Source: Rickettsiales bacterium
GTDB taxonomy: Bacteria > Pseudomonadota > Alphaproteobacteria > Rickettsiales > JALZUV01
DNA length: 43,310 nt
Reading direction: 5' to 3'
Assembly: GCA_029252805.1 (NCBI GenBank)
Contig: JAQXAR010000026.1
Location: forward strand, 1 to 43,310
Position numbers and translations under genes: made by a program
In this document: positions 15,821-20,917 of the stretch, piece after piece
How positions within the stretch are numbered: position 1 is the stretch's first letter
Layout of the letters: each line of letters opens with the position of its first letter
Notes under the pieces: model-generated
The model's input: the letters and a program-made list of their open reading frames with translations, nothing else
Told to the model about the DNA's origin: nothing
Databases searched by the model: none

Positions 15821-17368
15821 TTAGTTTTGTATAAAGAATCCCTTGGGTACGAAATCGACTAGGGCTTGTTGGAGGGTTGGTAGTACGTTTTCAGCGGTGC
15901 AGATATCGTGTTCGTACAAGCGCTGCAGGGCGGCTTCTAGCGTTTCGGTTTCGTGGATGGCTTTAAGCACGTGATAGTCGTTACCCTCTAATGGCTGGCG
16001 GAACACCTCTAGTTTTTGGCATATAAGTGCGAAATTTGGCAAGAGTTTGGCAGCGGGAGTGAGACTCAGATTTAAATGCAGGAATTGGTCTGGGGGTGTT
16101 TGGCCTAGGGCCTCTAGGCTCAGTGCTTCGGGTTGCGGATATTCTTGAAGCGAGCCAGTCAGCACCTCCAGCGCTGCGGTGGCAGCATAGTCTGCCGCCT
16201 GTTCTTTTAGGAATGGCACGAAGTTACGGATGTAGGGCTCCAAGGCATAGAATTGCGAAGGGTTGCGCTCAATATAGGTTCTGACGAGGATGTCGAAGGC
16301 TTCCTCTCCCATTTCCTCACGGGTTTGCGGATAATCTTGCACAATCGTATCGAACAGGCGCTTTCGGTACGCCAGCTGGTAGACATTCATTTGGGCTTTG
16401 GCGGGGAATTCGTCTTTTTCGCGCACCCAATCACTTGGCTCTGCACGTTCTAATATGCAGGCCTGGAAAGTATCCATGAGTATTTCGTAAGACTGGTTAT
16501 GCTCGCCGGTGAGCACGGGGCGCTGTTGTGCGAAATTGGGGAGATTCTCGGTTTCAGCAAACTGCTTCACTTTGTCTAATTCGGCCAGCATTGCTGAGAA
16601 GTCTGGGATGTTCGAATCCCACTCGATCATCGTGCTTTTCATGCCTTTGGTACGCATGGCATAGGCATAAAGCGCCAGCACTTCGTCATTCACAGGCGCA
16701 TCATGCGTATCGATGAGGTGGGTGCCGTGGTTTTCATGCCCGGCCAGATGGATCTGACCGATACGCTCCGCCGGTATCGCATCAATATAGACTTTCGGAT
16801 CAAGCCGGTGATTGTAGCAGGTGACATAGACGTTGTTAATATCTAGCAACAGCATGCAATCGGCTTGCTTGAGCAGTTCCGCAATGAATTCCCATTCGGA
16901 CAGGGTATTGGCAGCGAATTCCATATAGTTGGAAGGATTTTCCAGCAAAATACGTCGACCTAGAAACTCTTGCACCTGCCCGACTTTCTCAACCATCTGC
17001 TTGAGCGCATCTTCGGTATAAGGCACCGGCAGCAGGTCATGTGTGTTGATATGCGCATTACCCGTCCAGCAGACATGGTCGGATATCCAGGCAGGTTCTA
17101 GCCAGTCGGCCAGCGCTTTAAGATGGGTGAGGTATGTTTCATTCACCGGATCGCTACTGCCGATAGAGAGCGACACGCCATGCATGACCACCGGGTAATC
17201 TTGGCGAATTTTACCCAGCACTTCGCGCGCATAACCGTAATTGGTCATGAAATTCTCAGAAATAACCTCGAACCATTCGACTTTCTTGGACTTATCATTG
17301 AGCACGTCATCCCAGTGCTGCGAGCGCAATCCGAGGCCATATCCAAGATGTGGGAGTGTTTGAGTCAT
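15821..17368 (-). CDS. bufBC: BufB-BufC fusion: DUF692 multinuclear iron oxidase plus DUF2063 domain
   Basis: Residues 1 to about 280 form a DUF692 (MNIO) TIM-barrel. Conserved pieces are LGYGLGLRSQHWDDVL, FEVISENFM, MHGVSLSIGS, ISDHVCW, LENPSNYM, LLDINNVYV, and HLAGHENHG with LIDTHD; their His, Asp and Glu residues fit a di- or tri-iron site. Residues about 295-510 match DUF2063 (BufC-type): MNVYQLAYRKRLFDTI, QDYPQTREEMGEEAF, NPSQFYALEPYI, then LHLNLSLTPAAKLL. In bufferin systems BufB with BufC converts Cys of the BufA precursor to oxazolone/thiooxazole-type groups that bind metal. These are normally two genes; here one 515-codon frame carries both. The start fits the family N-terminus. No Shine-Dalgarno sequence is seen, because the preceding terminator ends 8 bases upstream. 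Confidence 0.93.
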   Translation of the reverse strand: MTQTLPHLGYGLGLRSQHWDDVLNDKSKKVEWFEVISENFMTNYGYAREVLGKIRQDYPVVMHGVSLSIGSSDPVNETYLTHLKALADWLEPAWISDHVCWTGNAHINTHDLLPVPYTEDALKQMVEKVGQVQEFLGRRILLENPSNYMEFAANTLSEWEFIAELLKQADCMLLLDINNVYVTCYNHRLDPKVYIDAIPAERIGQIHLAGHENHGTHLIDTHDAPVNDEVLALYAYAMRTKGMKSTMIEWDSNIPDFSAMLAELDKVKQFAETENLPNFAQQRPVLTGEHNQSYEILMDTFQACILERAEPSDWVREKDEFPAKAQMNVYQLAYRKRLFDTIVQDYPQTREEMGEEAFDILVRTYIERNPSQFYALEPYIRNFVPFLKEQAADYAATAALEVLTGSLQEYPQPEALSLEALGQTPPDQFLHLNLSLTPAAKLLPNFALICQKLEVFRQPLEGNDYHVLKAIHETETLEAALQRLYEHDICTAENVLPTLQQALVDFVPKGFFIQN

Positions 17369-17375
17369 ATCGCAT

Positions 17376-17410
17376 AAAAAAGCCGAGAGCAGCGTTTACT
17401 GCCCCCGGCT
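17376..17410 (-). terminator. Strong terminator/attenuator between bufA and bufBC
   Basis: On the minus strand AGCCGGGGGCAG (17410-17399) pairs over all 12 positions, with two G-U wobbles, to CTGCTCTCGGCT (17392-17381). The loop is TAAACG and the following tract is six T. The T-run ends 8 bases before the bufBC ATG. It lies after the bufA stop codon, so transcripts that end here carry only the precursor and read-through yields the modification enzyme. Confidence 0.9.
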
Positions 17411-17431
17411 CCTTTAAAAGCTTAGAGGCGA

Positions 17432-17707
17432 TTAGCCTTTTTTCGGCTCAGTCGTCGCACCGGCGAGTTTATCGCAAGAGCCTTCAGGTAGGTATACCCA
17501 CTCGTCCCATGCACCATCGGCGGCAGCTTGACCGGCGCAACCATGTGTACCCGATACGTTACCACAATCGTTTTTACCGGCTTTAACAGCACCGTAGCAT
17601 TTTTCCATACCAGGTTTAGCGGCTTGAACGTCGTTAGCGCCCAATGTAACAGCGCCAACAACGGCAGCAAGAGCAACAGCAGGGATAATCAATTTTGTTT
17701 TAGTCAT
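17432..17707 (-). CDS. bufA: BufA1-type bufferin precursor (DUF2282)
   Basis: The 91-residue exported peptide has an N-terminal signal (about 1-29, ending DVQA before AKPG). The DUF2282 core carries four Cys at 37, 48, 57 and 78 in the family contexts EKCYGAVKAGKNDC, GCAGQ and PEGSCDKLAG. Bufferins are ribosomally made, MNIO-modified peptides that chelate copper and related metals in the periplasm under stress. A candidate ECF promoter is at 17769-17797. GGAGAG upstream of the ATG is the ribosome-binding site. The maturation enzyme gene follows, behind a terminator. Confidence 0.94.
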   Translation of the reverse strand: MTKTKLIIPAVALAAVVGAVTLGANDVQAAKPGMEKCYGAVKAGKNDCGNVSGTHGCAGQAAADGAWDEWVYLPEGSCDKLAGATTEPKKG

Positions 17708-17768
17708 AGTAATCTCTCCAATGTGTAATTTTGTTAAAGCAGAATCAAAAATGAATTCTCATAACTCA

Positions 17769-17797
17769 CTTCGTTAGTGCTAACGAAACCATTACAA
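17769..17797 (-). promoter_or_regulatory. Candidate ECF-sigma promoter of bufA
   Basis: On the minus strand TTGTAATG, a 16-base spacer and CGAAG lie about 62 bases before the bufA start. The same two elements with identical spacing lie before doxX at 19003-19031. Overlapping the -10 half is a near-perfect palindrome TTCGTTAG-CA-CTAACGAA (17770-17787 region), which could bind a further regulator. Assignment to the adjacent ECF sigma factor is inference from the repeated motif. Confidence 0.65.
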
Positions 17798-17812
17798 GAA
17801 ATCATGTATTTT

Positions 17813-18451
17813 TTACCAGCGCAGTGCTTTTTTGCCGATAAACACGCCAACCAAGCCACAAAAAAGGATCGGTGAATAGCACCAAACCAACACATCCGCG
17901 AAGTTATCAGCCTGACCGATCGTACGCATAAGAAGATGCCCGACCGCGCTAGCCGAAAGCAGAACCATCGAACCAGCCCACCCTAACTGCGTGGGTGATC
18001 CTTGACGCAACAACCAAAACAAAAGCAACGCCACCGGCACCGCACCCGCTAGTACACCCAGCGTAATATAGAAATGACTGGGCGATTGAATCGAGGCAGA
18101 GAAGCTCTCCACGCTGACTTGTCCTAATAGCCAAATAACGGCGCCTATCGCAATCGGAAGAATCAACATCAACAGGCTTAAAGAAGATTTCCTTTCGCGC
18201 GGGACGGAAAGGCGCAAAGCAGCAATCGCGGCACCAAAGGCCAATATCAGCGTGATCAGCATTTCTGATGGGTAGGCAGCCCCTTCTATCATCTGATCGG
18301 CCCAATCACGACGGAAACCAAAATACGCCACCGTCAACAGGATGTAAGTCGTCAGAGCCGTCACCATCCAAAAGCAACGCCTGAACAGGTTAAGCGGCAC
18401 GACGGGCGTCGCGTCTTCTACCAAATTGGCTATGAGGGCTTCGTGACTCAT
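17813..18451 (-). CDS. nrsF: NrsF-family (DUF1109) membrane anti-sigma factor
   Basis: The 212-residue protein has a short cytoplasmic N-terminus and six hydrophobic helices, and it ends with the family-typical GxFIGKKALRW. A GSPTQLGW segment in the cytoplasmic loop matches the usual GAPTRP motif. NrsF proteins hold a cognate ECF sigma factor at the membrane and release it on metal or oxidative stress. Its ATG overlaps the sigma stop codon (ATGA), the usual sigma/anti-sigma coupling. Odd point: I see only C26, C191 and C198. The HC(P/T)E motif usual near the last helices is replaced by LLMRTIGQ, so sensing may differ. Confidence 0.88.
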   Translation of the reverse strand: MSHEALIANLVEDATPVVPLNLFRRCFWMVTALTTYILLTVAYFGFRRDWADQMIEGAAYPSEMLITLILAFGAAIAALRLSVPRERKSSLSLLMLILPIAIGAVIWLLGQVSVESFSASIQSPSHFYITLGVLAGAVPVALLLFWLLRQGSPTQLGWAGSMVLLSASAVGHLLMRTIGQADNFADVLVWCYSPILFCGLVGVFIGKKALRW

Positions 18452-18999
18452 CCGACCATTTCCGCTTTCTTACGTAATTCTTTCATCGCTCTATGCGCAG
18501 AGGTGCGAACATCCGGCACTGAGATTTTCATTTCATCCGACACTTCTTGCGCGGAATTCCCCTCTAGATAGAGCAGTTCTACTATCCTTCGTTGCTTAGG
18601 CTTCAAACATGACAATAATTTTTCACTTAATTCTTTATCGCTCGTAACCTCTTCAGGATTAAGCGCATGGACACCTTCCACCGGGTACAAAGATTCACCC
18701 GTTTCGCGCGCTTTCAGGCGATAATAACGACGCAGGTAATCTTGCAAACGATAACGGAAGATCGCATACATCCATGGATAGAAAGGCTTAGCCGCATCGT
18801 AAGTGGGGCGCGCTTTATGAATCGACATCAGAATTTCTTGCACGAGATCATTGGCATCATCACGCACAGCCAAACGTGTTGCCAGATAACGCGTTGCCAA
18901 GGTCTCAACCGTGCCTAACAGCTTCGCATACGTGGCTTTATCGCCCGTTTGTGCTGCGGCCATCCACTCTTGGCACTGTTTTTCTTGGCTATCGGACAT
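18448..18999 (-). CDS. ECF sigma factor (EcfF/NrsF-type)
   Basis: From the ATG at 18999 (MSDSQEKQCQEW) the product is 183 residues with the two sigma-70 domains. Region 2 is at about 40-90 (ANDLVQEILMSIHKARPTYD, then KPFYPWMYAIFRYRLQDYLRR) and region 4 at about 125-175 (LKPKQRRIVELLYLEGNSAQEVSDEM). A GTG at 19044 would extend it by 15 residues, but that would cover the divergent doxX promoter, so I prefer 18999. It is the first gene of the sigma-nrsF-bufA-bufBC unit and probably drives the two TTGTAAyG-N16-CGAAG promoters. Confidence 0.9.
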   Translation of the reverse strand: MSDSQEKQCQEWMAAAQTGDKATYAKLLGTVETLATRYLATRLAVRDDANDLVQEILMSIHKARPTYDAAKPFYPWMYAIFRYRLQDYLRRYYRLKARETGESLYPVEGVHALNPEEVTSDKELSEKLLSCLKPKQRRIVELLYLEGNSAQEVSDEMKISVPDVRTSAHRAMKELRKKAEMVG

Positions 19000-19002
19000 T
19001 AT

Positions 19003-19031
19003 TTGTAACGTTTTAGACTCCCTTAGCGAAG
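19003..19031 (+). promoter_or_regulatory. Candidate ECF-sigma promoter of doxX
   Basis: TTGTAACG (19003-19010), 16 bases, CGAAG (19027-19031), 40 bases before the doxX ATG. Elements and spacing equal those upstream of bufA. It also overlaps the region just upstream of the sigma factor ATG on the other strand, so sigma binding here could influence its own gene. Confidence 0.65.
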
Positions 19032-19070
19032 ATGAGTTTAACACCCTGAAAAATCCAAGGAGAAGAACCC

Positions 19071-19502
19071 ATGTCCGCTTTGATCGCTTTATATCATAAA
19101 ATCATCACAATGCTAGCACCCCTGCATGACGTCGTCATATTGCTGACTCGCATCTGGATCGCGAAGATTTTCTTTATGTCTGGGCTATCCAAAATTGATA
19201 ATTGGGAAAGTACGCTCAGCTTATTTGAGTATGAATATGCCGTGCCCGTACTGCCAGTTGTCTTTGCAGCGGCTTCCGCCACTTTCTTTGAGCTTGTGGT
19301 ACCGCCTTTATTAGTACTTGGAGTCTTCACTCGTATCGCAGCCTTGCCATTGCTCGCCATGACGGCGGTGATTGAATTTACCTATAATTCTTATCCTGAG
19401 CATGCTTATTGGGCTTTATTGCTGGGTGTCCTGATCACTTACGGAGCCGGTAAATTCTCGGTCGATCATTATGCGAAAAATCATTTTGCGAAACCTGTAT
19501 GA
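19071..19502 (+). CDS. DoxX-family membrane protein
   Basis: The 143-residue protein has four hydrophobic helices and the DoxX-typical RIWIAKIFFMSGLSKIDNW segment near the N-terminus. DoxX proteins frequently accompany bufferin operons and are linked to thiol or quinone redox chemistry, but their reaction is unsettled. Here the gene is divergent from the sigma factor and has a matching ECF promoter and a good AAGGAGAAG site. Its last codons overlap the next gene (ATGA at 19499-19502), so the two proteins are made together. Confidence 0.88.
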   Translation: MSALIALYHKIITMLAPLHDVVILLTRIWIAKIFFMSGLSKIDNWESTLSLFEYEYAVPVLPVVFAAASATFFELVVPPLLVLGVFTRIAALPLLAMTAVIEFTYNSYPEHAYWALLLGVLITYGAGKFSVDHYAKNHFAKPV

Positions 19503-19711
19503 ACAAAGGTCCCTTCACCGTAAAAGAGCAAATCCCGCCCGAGAGAGACCATAGCAATACCTTTCTCGGGCTGGGAGCACTCAGCGGTGCTTACGGTATC
19601 TTCACCAAAATCAGCGTCGGCTACTTTTGCCCCGCGTGCCTATCTTTGACCCCTATATTGCTGACCATCGGTCTTTGGAAGAAACAAATCAAAAAGCGAC
19701 GCAACAAATAA
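19499..19711 (+). CDS. Small CPAC-motif membrane protein
   Basis: The 70-residue product has a hydrophilic N-terminus, one or two hydrophobic helices around 21-62 and a Lys/Arg tail. A redox or metal-type Cys pair C44-P-A-C47 (GYFCPACLSLTP) sits within the membrane segment. I do not recognise a named family. It is translationally coupled to doxX and shares its candidate ECF promoter, so it is probably a partner in the same metal or thiol stress response. A metal-binding or disulfide role is inference from CPAC and context. Confidence 0.8.
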   Translation: MNKGPFTVKEQIPPERDHSNTFLGLGALSGAYGIFTKISVGYFCPACLSLTPILLTIGLWKKQIKKRRNK

Positions 19712-20205: not shown

Positions 20206-20917
20206 AGACATTACCTCTTGCGCACAATACCAAGCACTCGAACAAGATTTCGCTAACTTTGTGTACTCTGTTTCGCATGATTTCAATGCGCCGTTACGCC
20301 ATGTGCGCGAGTTCCATAAGCTACTCTTGCAAAAACGTGAGGCCGACGCCTCAAGCGATGAAAGCCTCTATATTGACATGATCAATCAATCGCTCGATCA
20401 TATGCAGGCGATGCTTGACTGCTTGCTCGAAATTTCACACCTATCCAACAACAGCCAAGAAACGGTGCAGACACTTGATAGCAAAGCAGTTATCAAAGAA
20501 GCGATGCACTCGTTCCAAGACACCCTTGCTGAGCATAAAATACAAATCACTTACGGTGAGAACTTACCTACTATCTGCGGTCAAAAAGATGTTCTAGTAC
20601 GGCTATTTTCTGAAATTATTGGTAACGCCATTATGTTCAGAAGCCCCAACACTGTGCTGCAATTAGACATAGCAGGCAATGAGCAGAGCGGCACCAGCCA
20701 GCTTACCTTTACCGATAACGGTATCGGTATCGCCGAGAGTTTCCGGACAGATGCCTTTACCGTTTTCCGCAAATTACATCCTGAAGAACATCACGAAGGC
20801 ATGGGATGCGGGCTTGCATTATGCCAAGCTACCATACGCCATCTCGGTGGGAAAATCTGGTTTGAAACGGCACCTGACAAAGGCACCCGTTTCCACGTTA
20901 CCCTGCCTACATGTTAG
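20195..20917 (+). CDS. Soluble sensor-less histidine kinase
   Basis: The 240-residue kinase consists of a HisKA dimerisation domain (H-box YSVSHDFNAPLRHV, H28) and a HATPase domain (N-box SEIIGNAIMF, G1 DNGIGI, G2 GMGCGLAL). There is no membrane segment and no sensor domain. The H-box style resembles phytochrome-type and related kinases. An input may come from the coupled receiver or another protein. Its end overlaps the convergent XRE-receiver gene by 11 bases. Confidence 0.88.
   Translation: MTNRDITSCAQYQALEQDFANFVYSVSHDFNAPLRHVREFHKLLLQKREADASSDESLYIDMINQSLDHMQAMLDCLLEISHLSNNSQETVQTLDSKAVIKEAMHSFQDTLAEHKIQITYGENLPTICGQKDVLVRLFSEIIGNAIMFRSPNTVLQLDIAGNEQSGTSQLTFTDNGIGIAESFRTDAFTVFRKLHPEEHHEGMGCGLALCQATIRHLGGKIWFETAPDKGTRFHVTLPTC

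Follow-up and report, generated by a model that had tools for sequence, protein, structure and literature searches.

Gene content of the locus and the bufBC fusion

The window, by which we mean the whole 43,310-nucleotide stretch analysed here (Rickettsiales bacterium, assembly GCA_029252805.1, contig JAQXAR010000026.1), contains a putative bufferin locus. Its central gene, bufBC, joins the MNIO maturase BufB and the partner BufC (PME1) in one reading frame. Next to it lie genes for a BufA precursor of the DUF2282 family, a membrane anti-sigma factor (NrsF), an extracytoplasmic function (ECF) sigma factor and a divergent DoxX-family protein (Table 1). The original bufferin paper is reportedly that of Leprevost et al.

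The fused gene is a single ATG-started open reading frame of 515 codons that lacks internal stops. Residues 10–271 matched the Pfam family PF05114 (MbnB_TglH_ChrH, MNIO) with 354.5 bits against a cut-off of 25, the match covering profile positions 2–262 of 263, and residues 300–387 matched PF09836 (DUF2063) with 48.1 bits (cut-off 27.2). With the NCBIfam equivalog model for MNIO_BufB (NF050167) the fused protein scored 360.2 bits, above the cut-off of 310. The linker between the two parts measures 19 residues with our own profiles and 28 with Pfam. In the alignment, H98, E143, D176, H207, H222 and E249, which we take to be the MNIO iron ligands, are the same residues as in TglH and MbnB and are invariant across ten aligned fused proteins. 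The open reading frame together with the Pfam and NCBIfam matches thus bears out a continuous 515-codon BufB–BufC frame, which an earlier note made from the letters alone had proposed. That note had assigned residues 295–510 to DUF2063. As the extent of the partner half in full this is correct; the Pfam domain takes up only the first part, and the remainder is predicted to form an RRE.

BufC/PME1 is usually a separate protein of about 250–260 amino acids (PMC12452194; articles are cited here and below to the extent of their available text), whereas in the window it is joined to BufB. The genome is 2.19 Mb in 63 contigs and 99.19% complete. PF05114 and PF09836 have one match each in it, both inside the fused gene, and searches of the 63 contigs with these two profiles found neither a second MNIO nor a separate BufC. 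Since no separate BufC was found in the genome, the fused chain is the sole candidate for both jobs.

Table 1. Features of the putative bufferin locus, with positions in the window.
Feature	Position	Strand	Basis
bufBC, one-gene fusion of MNIO maturase (BufB) and partner (BufC/PME1), 515 aa	15821..17368	-	Reading frame, Pfam, NCBIfam, predicted fold
RRE-like winged-helix domain of bufBC, residues 432-515	15824..16075	-	Predicted fold
DUF2063 helical domain of bufBC (PF09836), residues 300-387	16208..16471	-	Pfam
MNIO catalytic domain of bufBC (PF05114), residues 10-271	16556..17341	-	Pfam
bufA, DUF2282 (Buf1) precursor, 91 aa, 4 Cys	17432..17707	-	PF10048, 72.5 bits
Candidate sigmaF-type promoter upstream of bufA, GTAATG-N16-CGAA	17770..17795	-	Pattern
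nrsF, membrane anti-sigma factor	17813..18451	-	PF06532, 97.1 bits
sigF-type ECF sigma factor	18448..18999	-	PF04542/PF08281
Candidate sigmaF-type promoter upstream of doxX, GTAACG-N16-CGAA	19005..19030	+	Pattern
doxX, DoxX-family membrane protein, divergent	19071..19502	+	PF07681, 57.5 bits
70-aa frame, CPAC motif in hydrophobic stretch, overlaps doxX end	19499..19711	+	Open reading frame

Predicted fold of the fused protein

The whole chain was modelled with AlphaFold2 from a 47-row alignment containing seven fused proteins, the other rows being BufB or BufC alone. The model is confident over both halves (pLDDT 92.6, pTM 0.89), with the lowest confidence at about residues 271–290, which is the linker. 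The fold alignment of the whole chain covered the MNIO half, and this matched TglH, MbnB and 3bww with Z 26–29 (Foldseek was also run). The C-terminal half was also folded and searched separately. Folded alone, it reached pLDDT 93.9 and pTM 0.81, and strands and three helices were predicted in residues 432–515. It matched NGO1945 (3dee; Z 13.2 over 179 residues) and TglI (Z about 10); the match to MbnC was weak (Z about 5). The last 84 residues matched the leader-binding RREs TbiB1 (Z 8.8) and lasso B1 (Z 8.4), and MccB with Z 6.5. By sequence, the C-terminal half alone found nothing useful in the PDB, and its alignment retrieved 3dee weakly (E 0.0013). Judged from the models, BufC looks complete in the window, RRE included, despite a stretch missing before the RRE that is taken up below.

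Pfam describes DUF2063 as 'Putative DNA-binding domain', and the title of the structure 3dee names a putative regulatory protein. The C-terminal half could on these grounds be a DNA-binding regulator and not a maturation partner. However, the structures that its fold matches include TglI, which is solved and is the partner of the MNIO TglH, as well as leader-binding RREs, and the literature presents PME1 proteins as partners dedicated to MNIOs (PMC13097082). We consider a role as regulator extremely unlikely.

Fused maturases in other genomes

The fused form was counted among the genomes of the order, in samples of the class and the phylum, and in named genomes. The counts are lower bounds, and neighbour searches end at contig ends. 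An MNIO is present in 84 of 343 genomes of the order, and in 17 of them its frame exceeds 500 residues; 16 of the 343, from nine families, carry a true fusion that includes a BufC match, and the seventeenth is the frameshift join of G252. The class sample of 385 genomes held 149 with an MNIO (four of these in the order) and, among the matches listed, at least four further fused cases outside the order (G352, G442, G647, G701); another seven long frames there are open on the upstream side only. No fusion was added among the matches listed for the phylum sample, in which 145 of 398 genomes, members of the class among them, had an MNIO. For the named genomes, eight of the best 80 of 562 confirmed stretches were fused, two of them (G019, G647) already counted. 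The named carriers are Alphaproteobacteria HKST-UBA22, an uncultured Methylophilus, Methylophilus sp. 42, M. aquaticus, and two metagenome-assembled genomes (MAGs), one of Deltaproteobacteria/Myxococcota and one of Acidovorax. In total, at least 26 fused proteins were found. A first scan of the named genomes with the window protein alone had found no relative. Six peptide patterns taken from the fused protein of Methylophilus had no match on viral contigs, which rules out close relatives only. The same protein matched 355 plasmid records; among the 15 listed, 12 have two genes, three are unannotated and none has the one-gene form.

Several candidates were rejected. In G370, G377, G506 (contig C6), G523, G612, G635 and G646 the MNIO match is followed by no more than 60 residues and the frame is open upstream, and these are not fusions. 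In G953 the B and C parts lie in different frames, and a 463-residue frame of G1007 is too short for MNIO, linker and BufC together. A 535-residue frame of G252 (L094, 1534-3138) was dropped for a frameshift near the BufB end, which puts that end in another frame; a further copy in this genome (L035, L163) is split.

The case of G252 raises the question of whether the window frame itself could come from a sequencing or assembly error that deleted a stop between two genes, as the artefact in this relative is comparable. Against this, 23 other fused frames of the group of 24 described below come from separate assemblies and have similar linker lengths (18–29 residues across the group, measured with one common pair of profiles), two Methylophilus records with the fused frame are not marked as MAGs, and the PF05114 match in the window is nearly complete. 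Such an error has a very small chance of explaining the window, and on these sequences we regard it as excluded for the fused group.

Evolutionary history of the fusion

Trees were built from the MNIO part alone and from MNIO plus BufC, with 53 rows each. In the best trees 24 of the 26 fused proteins lie on one branch, with support of 85/81 (MNIO) and 93/91 (MNIO plus BufC), neither of them starred; this support for a single branch is not decisive. Within the branch, the window and G321 are sisters (100/100). The identity of the fused group to the window is 41–52% in the nine proteins aligned.

An alternative is that the window and G321, which have DUF2282 precursors, fused independently of the fused lineage with CKG-type precursors described below. 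The best identities of the window protein are to split BufB proteins of the order (61, 57 and 56%), compared with 46–50% to fused proteins, although the latter values span a longer stretch that includes the variable C-terminal half and come from a set that leaves out G321. Holding the window and G321 with the split clade of the order costs 3.4 log-likelihood units and is not rejected by the approximately unbiased (AU) test (p 0.243). The best trees nevertheless place all 24 on one branch at the support given above, and the linker lengths of the group agree. We regard two fusion events as unlikely, though clearly worth keeping in view, and prefer a single fusion for the group of 24.

The two remaining fusions (L245, L253) differ from this group. 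The Myxococcota fusion is placed among split relatives in both 53-row trees and has a linker of 82 residues, and the Acidovorax fusion stands apart from the 24 in a larger quick tree and has a linker of 54 residues. Because of their placement and their longer linkers, both probably arose in separate events.

The branching within the group departs from taxonomy. In the tree of MNIO plus BufC, G001, from the window's own genus, is found with HKST-UBA22 instead of the window protein, and Methylophilus groups with the order members G308 and G311. As a pattern in the trees this fits horizontal transfer, with old duplicates and subsequent losses as the alternative. For 143 of 165 split pairs of B and C, the frame of C is open ahead of the B stop, a count of open frames and not of start codons in which some loci appear more than once. 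On a Shinella plasmid, B and C are in one frame, separated by a stop codon and one further codon. With the C frame so often open before the B stop and with the spacing seen in Shinella, fusion would be a short step.

Precursors beside the fused gene

The precursors in the 24 loci of the group were sorted by eye, contig ends limiting some of the loci. A DUF2282 precursor alone was present in two loci (window, G321) and DUF2282 and CKG-type precursors together in four (G024, G352, G647, G701). Another 15 loci had, directly upstream of the fused gene, a precursor of the CKG type or one with similar Cys repeats, hydrophobic at its N-terminus, as the only kind; for the remaining three (G001, G337, G442) no precursor was recognised by eye. 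CKG-type precursors are thus commoner beside the fused gene than DUF2282 precursors, in 19 versus 6 of the 24 loci. The loci L138, L151, L153 and L154 are of the kind in which a single fused maturase lies near precursors of the two types, DUF2282 and CKG. The precursor upstream of the fused gene in G019 (L137) is unlike the others, with a lipoprotein-like N-terminus, repeated NSCKS/NSCES and seven Cys.

The CKG-type precursors resemble BufA2: the NCBIfam model NF050166 matched four of six CKG-type peptides with 18.6–49.8 bits, all under the cut-off of 60, and it also matched a DUF2282 precursor with 32.1 bits. Since these matches are below the cut-off and shared with DUF2282, the label 'Buf2-like' for the CKG-type precursors is a loose one. 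Precursors with 'multiple Cys-Lys motifs' are one of three kinds described in MNIO-PME1 clusters (PMC13097082).

Regulatory genes, promoters and other neighbours

In Caulobacter, sigmaF drives the genes CC3254-3257 (DUF2282, DUF692, DUF2063, DoxX) from a site GTAACC-N16-CGAA, and NrsF is its negative regulator; when C131 or C181 of NrsF is replaced, the sigmaF targets are less well held at their basal level (PMC3511200). In the window an ECF sigma factor gene is adjacent to nrsF, and sites of the GTAACC-N16-CGAA type stand before the putative targets; their first hexamers, GTAATG and GTAACG, depart from GTAACC at the final one or two positions. The frame of the ECF sigma factor opens at 19044 with GTG, and its true start is probably the ATG at 18999.

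Of 21 fused loci, 12 have a looser sigmaF-type pattern ahead of the precursor, where 0.67 would be expected from base shuffles, and all 12 sites have GTAAYN, 16 bases between, and CGAA. The pattern was chosen with the window and the motif already known; the fair test is the other 20 loci, with 11 hits. Matches to sigF and nrsF lie close by in 6 of 19 other fused loci examined (G248, G300, G308, G311, G318, G326), and in the stretch examined these six have CKG-type precursors and no DUF2282. Sigma/NrsF genes are reported to accompany Buf1 but not Buf2 clusters (PMC12452194). The loci L140, L143, L144, L145, L146 and L148 combine sigF-nrsF, a CKG-type (Buf2-like) precursor and a fused maturase, and as such are an exception to the published Buf2 observation.

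The window BufA has the features of a Buf1 precursor, namely the DUF2282 family, four Cys and a hydrophobic N-terminus that resembles a Sec signal peptide, judged by eye. The HvfX model of NCBIfam scored 50.5 bits on DoxX, under its cut-off of 80, and the 70-aa frame overlapping the end of doxX matched no family above any cut-off in Pfam or NCBIfam. PF10048 has two matches in the window genome, bufA and an orphan at G000:C41:1211-1357. The orphan DUF2282 precursor (L255, 1112-1390, on the same contig) has 92 aa and 4 Cys, and its gene overlaps the end of a frame for 153 aa that resemble the C-terminal part of CusA/CzcA RND pumps; directly upstream of this fragment the pump frame holds stops. 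No sigmaF-type site was found near this gene in the 2857 bases examined. Elsewhere in the window, a frame at 1387-2850 resembles a phage terminase large subunit, judged from the sequence.

Proposed function of the locus

We interpret the window as a sigmaF/NrsF-type copper-bufferin (captophorin) locus in which maturase and partner form one polypeptide that works as outlined below, with a probability of about 0.83. The earlier note had already read it as a bufferin locus with a BufB–BufC fusion. The domain search, the search for further copies in the genome, the fold prediction and the survey of fused and split forms all support that reading, Pfam matches confirmed the DUF2282 precursor, the ECF sigma factor and NrsF as neighbours, and the recurrence in other genomes means that the fusion is no one-off.

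In the proposed working, metal stress would make the membrane protein NrsF release the ECF sigma factor, and the sigma factor would transcribe bufA-bufBC and doxX from their respective candidate promoters (Table 1). In the cytoplasm, the C-terminal RRE would bind the N-terminal signal-peptide/leader part of BufA, the DUF2063 helices would help to dock BufA on the MNIO barrel, and the MNIO, with O2 and its iron cluster, would convert the central Cys to 5-thiooxazoles. Modified BufA would then be exported by Sec and chelate copper in the periplasm. For split relatives, sigmaF control in Caulobacter (PMC3511200), the thiooxazole chemistry and the need for a partner have been reported. We infer both that the fused chain does the same and what the signal is. 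One chain would tie BufB and BufC at 1:1, and by analogy with the artificial HvfBC fusion described below, the fusion would keep every MNIO partner-bound and more of the enzyme active. It could also give a single-chain view of how BufC presents BufA to BufB.

Several observations weigh against this interpretation. The HvfC model of NCBIfam scored only 16.8 bits on the fused protein (cut-off 142). For the last 84 residues, the match to PqqD is under 8 (Z 7.4), and some unrelated winged helices score like RREs on the C-terminal half (Rv2067c, Z 9.9; PKMT2, Z 8.0), so the fold alone is no proof of leader binding. A third match to the promoter pattern in the window, at 20272-20297, does not precede a bufferin gene; the chance mean for the window is 0.34, and 3 of 100 shuffles gave three matches. 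A genome-wide regulon could not be derived from the pattern, with 30 matches compared with 31 for the reversed control. As genome-wide matches are at background, the pattern is informative only by position, and 9 of the 21 fused loci lack it before the precursor. Compared with other fused members, the window protein is short of about 25–30 residues ahead of the RRE. The window NrsF has I and G in two columns where relatives of the order have Cys (10/10 and 9/10). This Cys pair, ECxxC in the relatives, is absent from the window NrsF, which also reads WCY where all ten relatives have WHY.

The last two points could mean that the locus is decaying, with a fused protein that is inactive or made constitutively. 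Yet the frames are intact, the aligned catalytic residues are invariant, the RRE is still predicted with high confidence, and the 4-Cys BufA and the promoter motifs are in place. Decay is, in our view, improbable, and a working bufferin locus is preferred. From its sequence, the sensing part of the window NrsF may be lost or changed. In view of the effect of replacing C131 or C181 in Caulobacter, regulation in the window may be lax or may answer to a different signal, if the two columns correspond to these residues.

For the fused lineage as a whole, we tentatively propose, at somewhat less than even odds, a separate, horizontally moving MNIO lineage with a changed substrate. One ancestral BufB–BufC fusion, often under sigmaF, would now serve DUF2282 in some hosts and CKG-repeat precursors in most, with a single chain serving both unrelated families in G024, G352, G647 and G701. 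If this is true, the fused lineage would be a natural one-piece, broad-substrate installer of thiooxazoles and an exception to the published link of sigma/NrsF with Buf1 and not Buf2.

Relation to known systems and significance

The closest relatives in gene content are split. The Caulobacter sigF-nrsF/CC3254-CC3257 system has the gene families, the sigma/anti-sigma pair and the type of precursor promoter in common with the window, but its BufB (CC3255, 280 aa) and BufC (CC3256, 254 aa) are two genes, and doxX is the last gene of the operon, whereas in the window it is divergent with its own motif (PMC3511200). Split Buf1 loci of the order (G023, G253, G045, G013) and of Shinella sp. HZN7 pShin-06 have all or most of the same kit, with two genes.

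The closest functional precedent is an artificial HvfB-HvfC fusion, made for 1:1 stoichiometry, which was active and above the co-expressed pair (PMC13419390, a July 2026 preprint). HvfB and HvfC associate poorly, the engineered fusion gave a homogeneous preparation, and the mixed-valent active iron state appears only with the partner (PMC13419390). The artificial HvfBC joins the MNIO C-terminus to the DUF2063-RRE N-terminus, the domain order of the window, but it has no linker and belongs to the oxazolin pathway (PMC13419390); the window protein is natural, of the BufB family and linked as described above. MovX, from methanobactin-like clusters of Vibrio, is a natural MNIO with a C-terminal winged-helix/RRE and no separate partner. 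It differs in that its target is a C-terminal Asn and its product a C-terminal amide, and the available text does not mention DUF2063 (PMC12452194, PMC13419390). TglHI and MbnBC (8hi7, 8hci, 7tcr, 7dz9) are also MNIO and partner, and the window halves match TglH/MbnB and TglI, but these systems have two chains, other products and about 20% identity in the MNIO half.

We found no description of a natural MNIO-DUF2063 fusion in the available text of the open-licence literature (including PMC12452194, PMC13419390, PMC12710340, PMC13097082, PMC12257519 and PMC12538549). The fused gene may well be annotated in public genomes. What is new is the architecture and the variation of precursors within the lineage, while the parts and the pathway are known.

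Partner binding is a weak point of work on MNIOs. Since fusions occur in nature, and some of the carriers are Methylophilus isolates, crystallography, spectroscopy and peptide engineering can draw on natural single-chain maturases. With two precursor families beside the fused lineage, the recognition of different precursors by one enzyme can be addressed directly. The window genome is a clean case, since the only MNIO and the only DUF2063 found in it lie in the fused gene: should this bacterium make bufferins, both tasks must fall to the fused chain.

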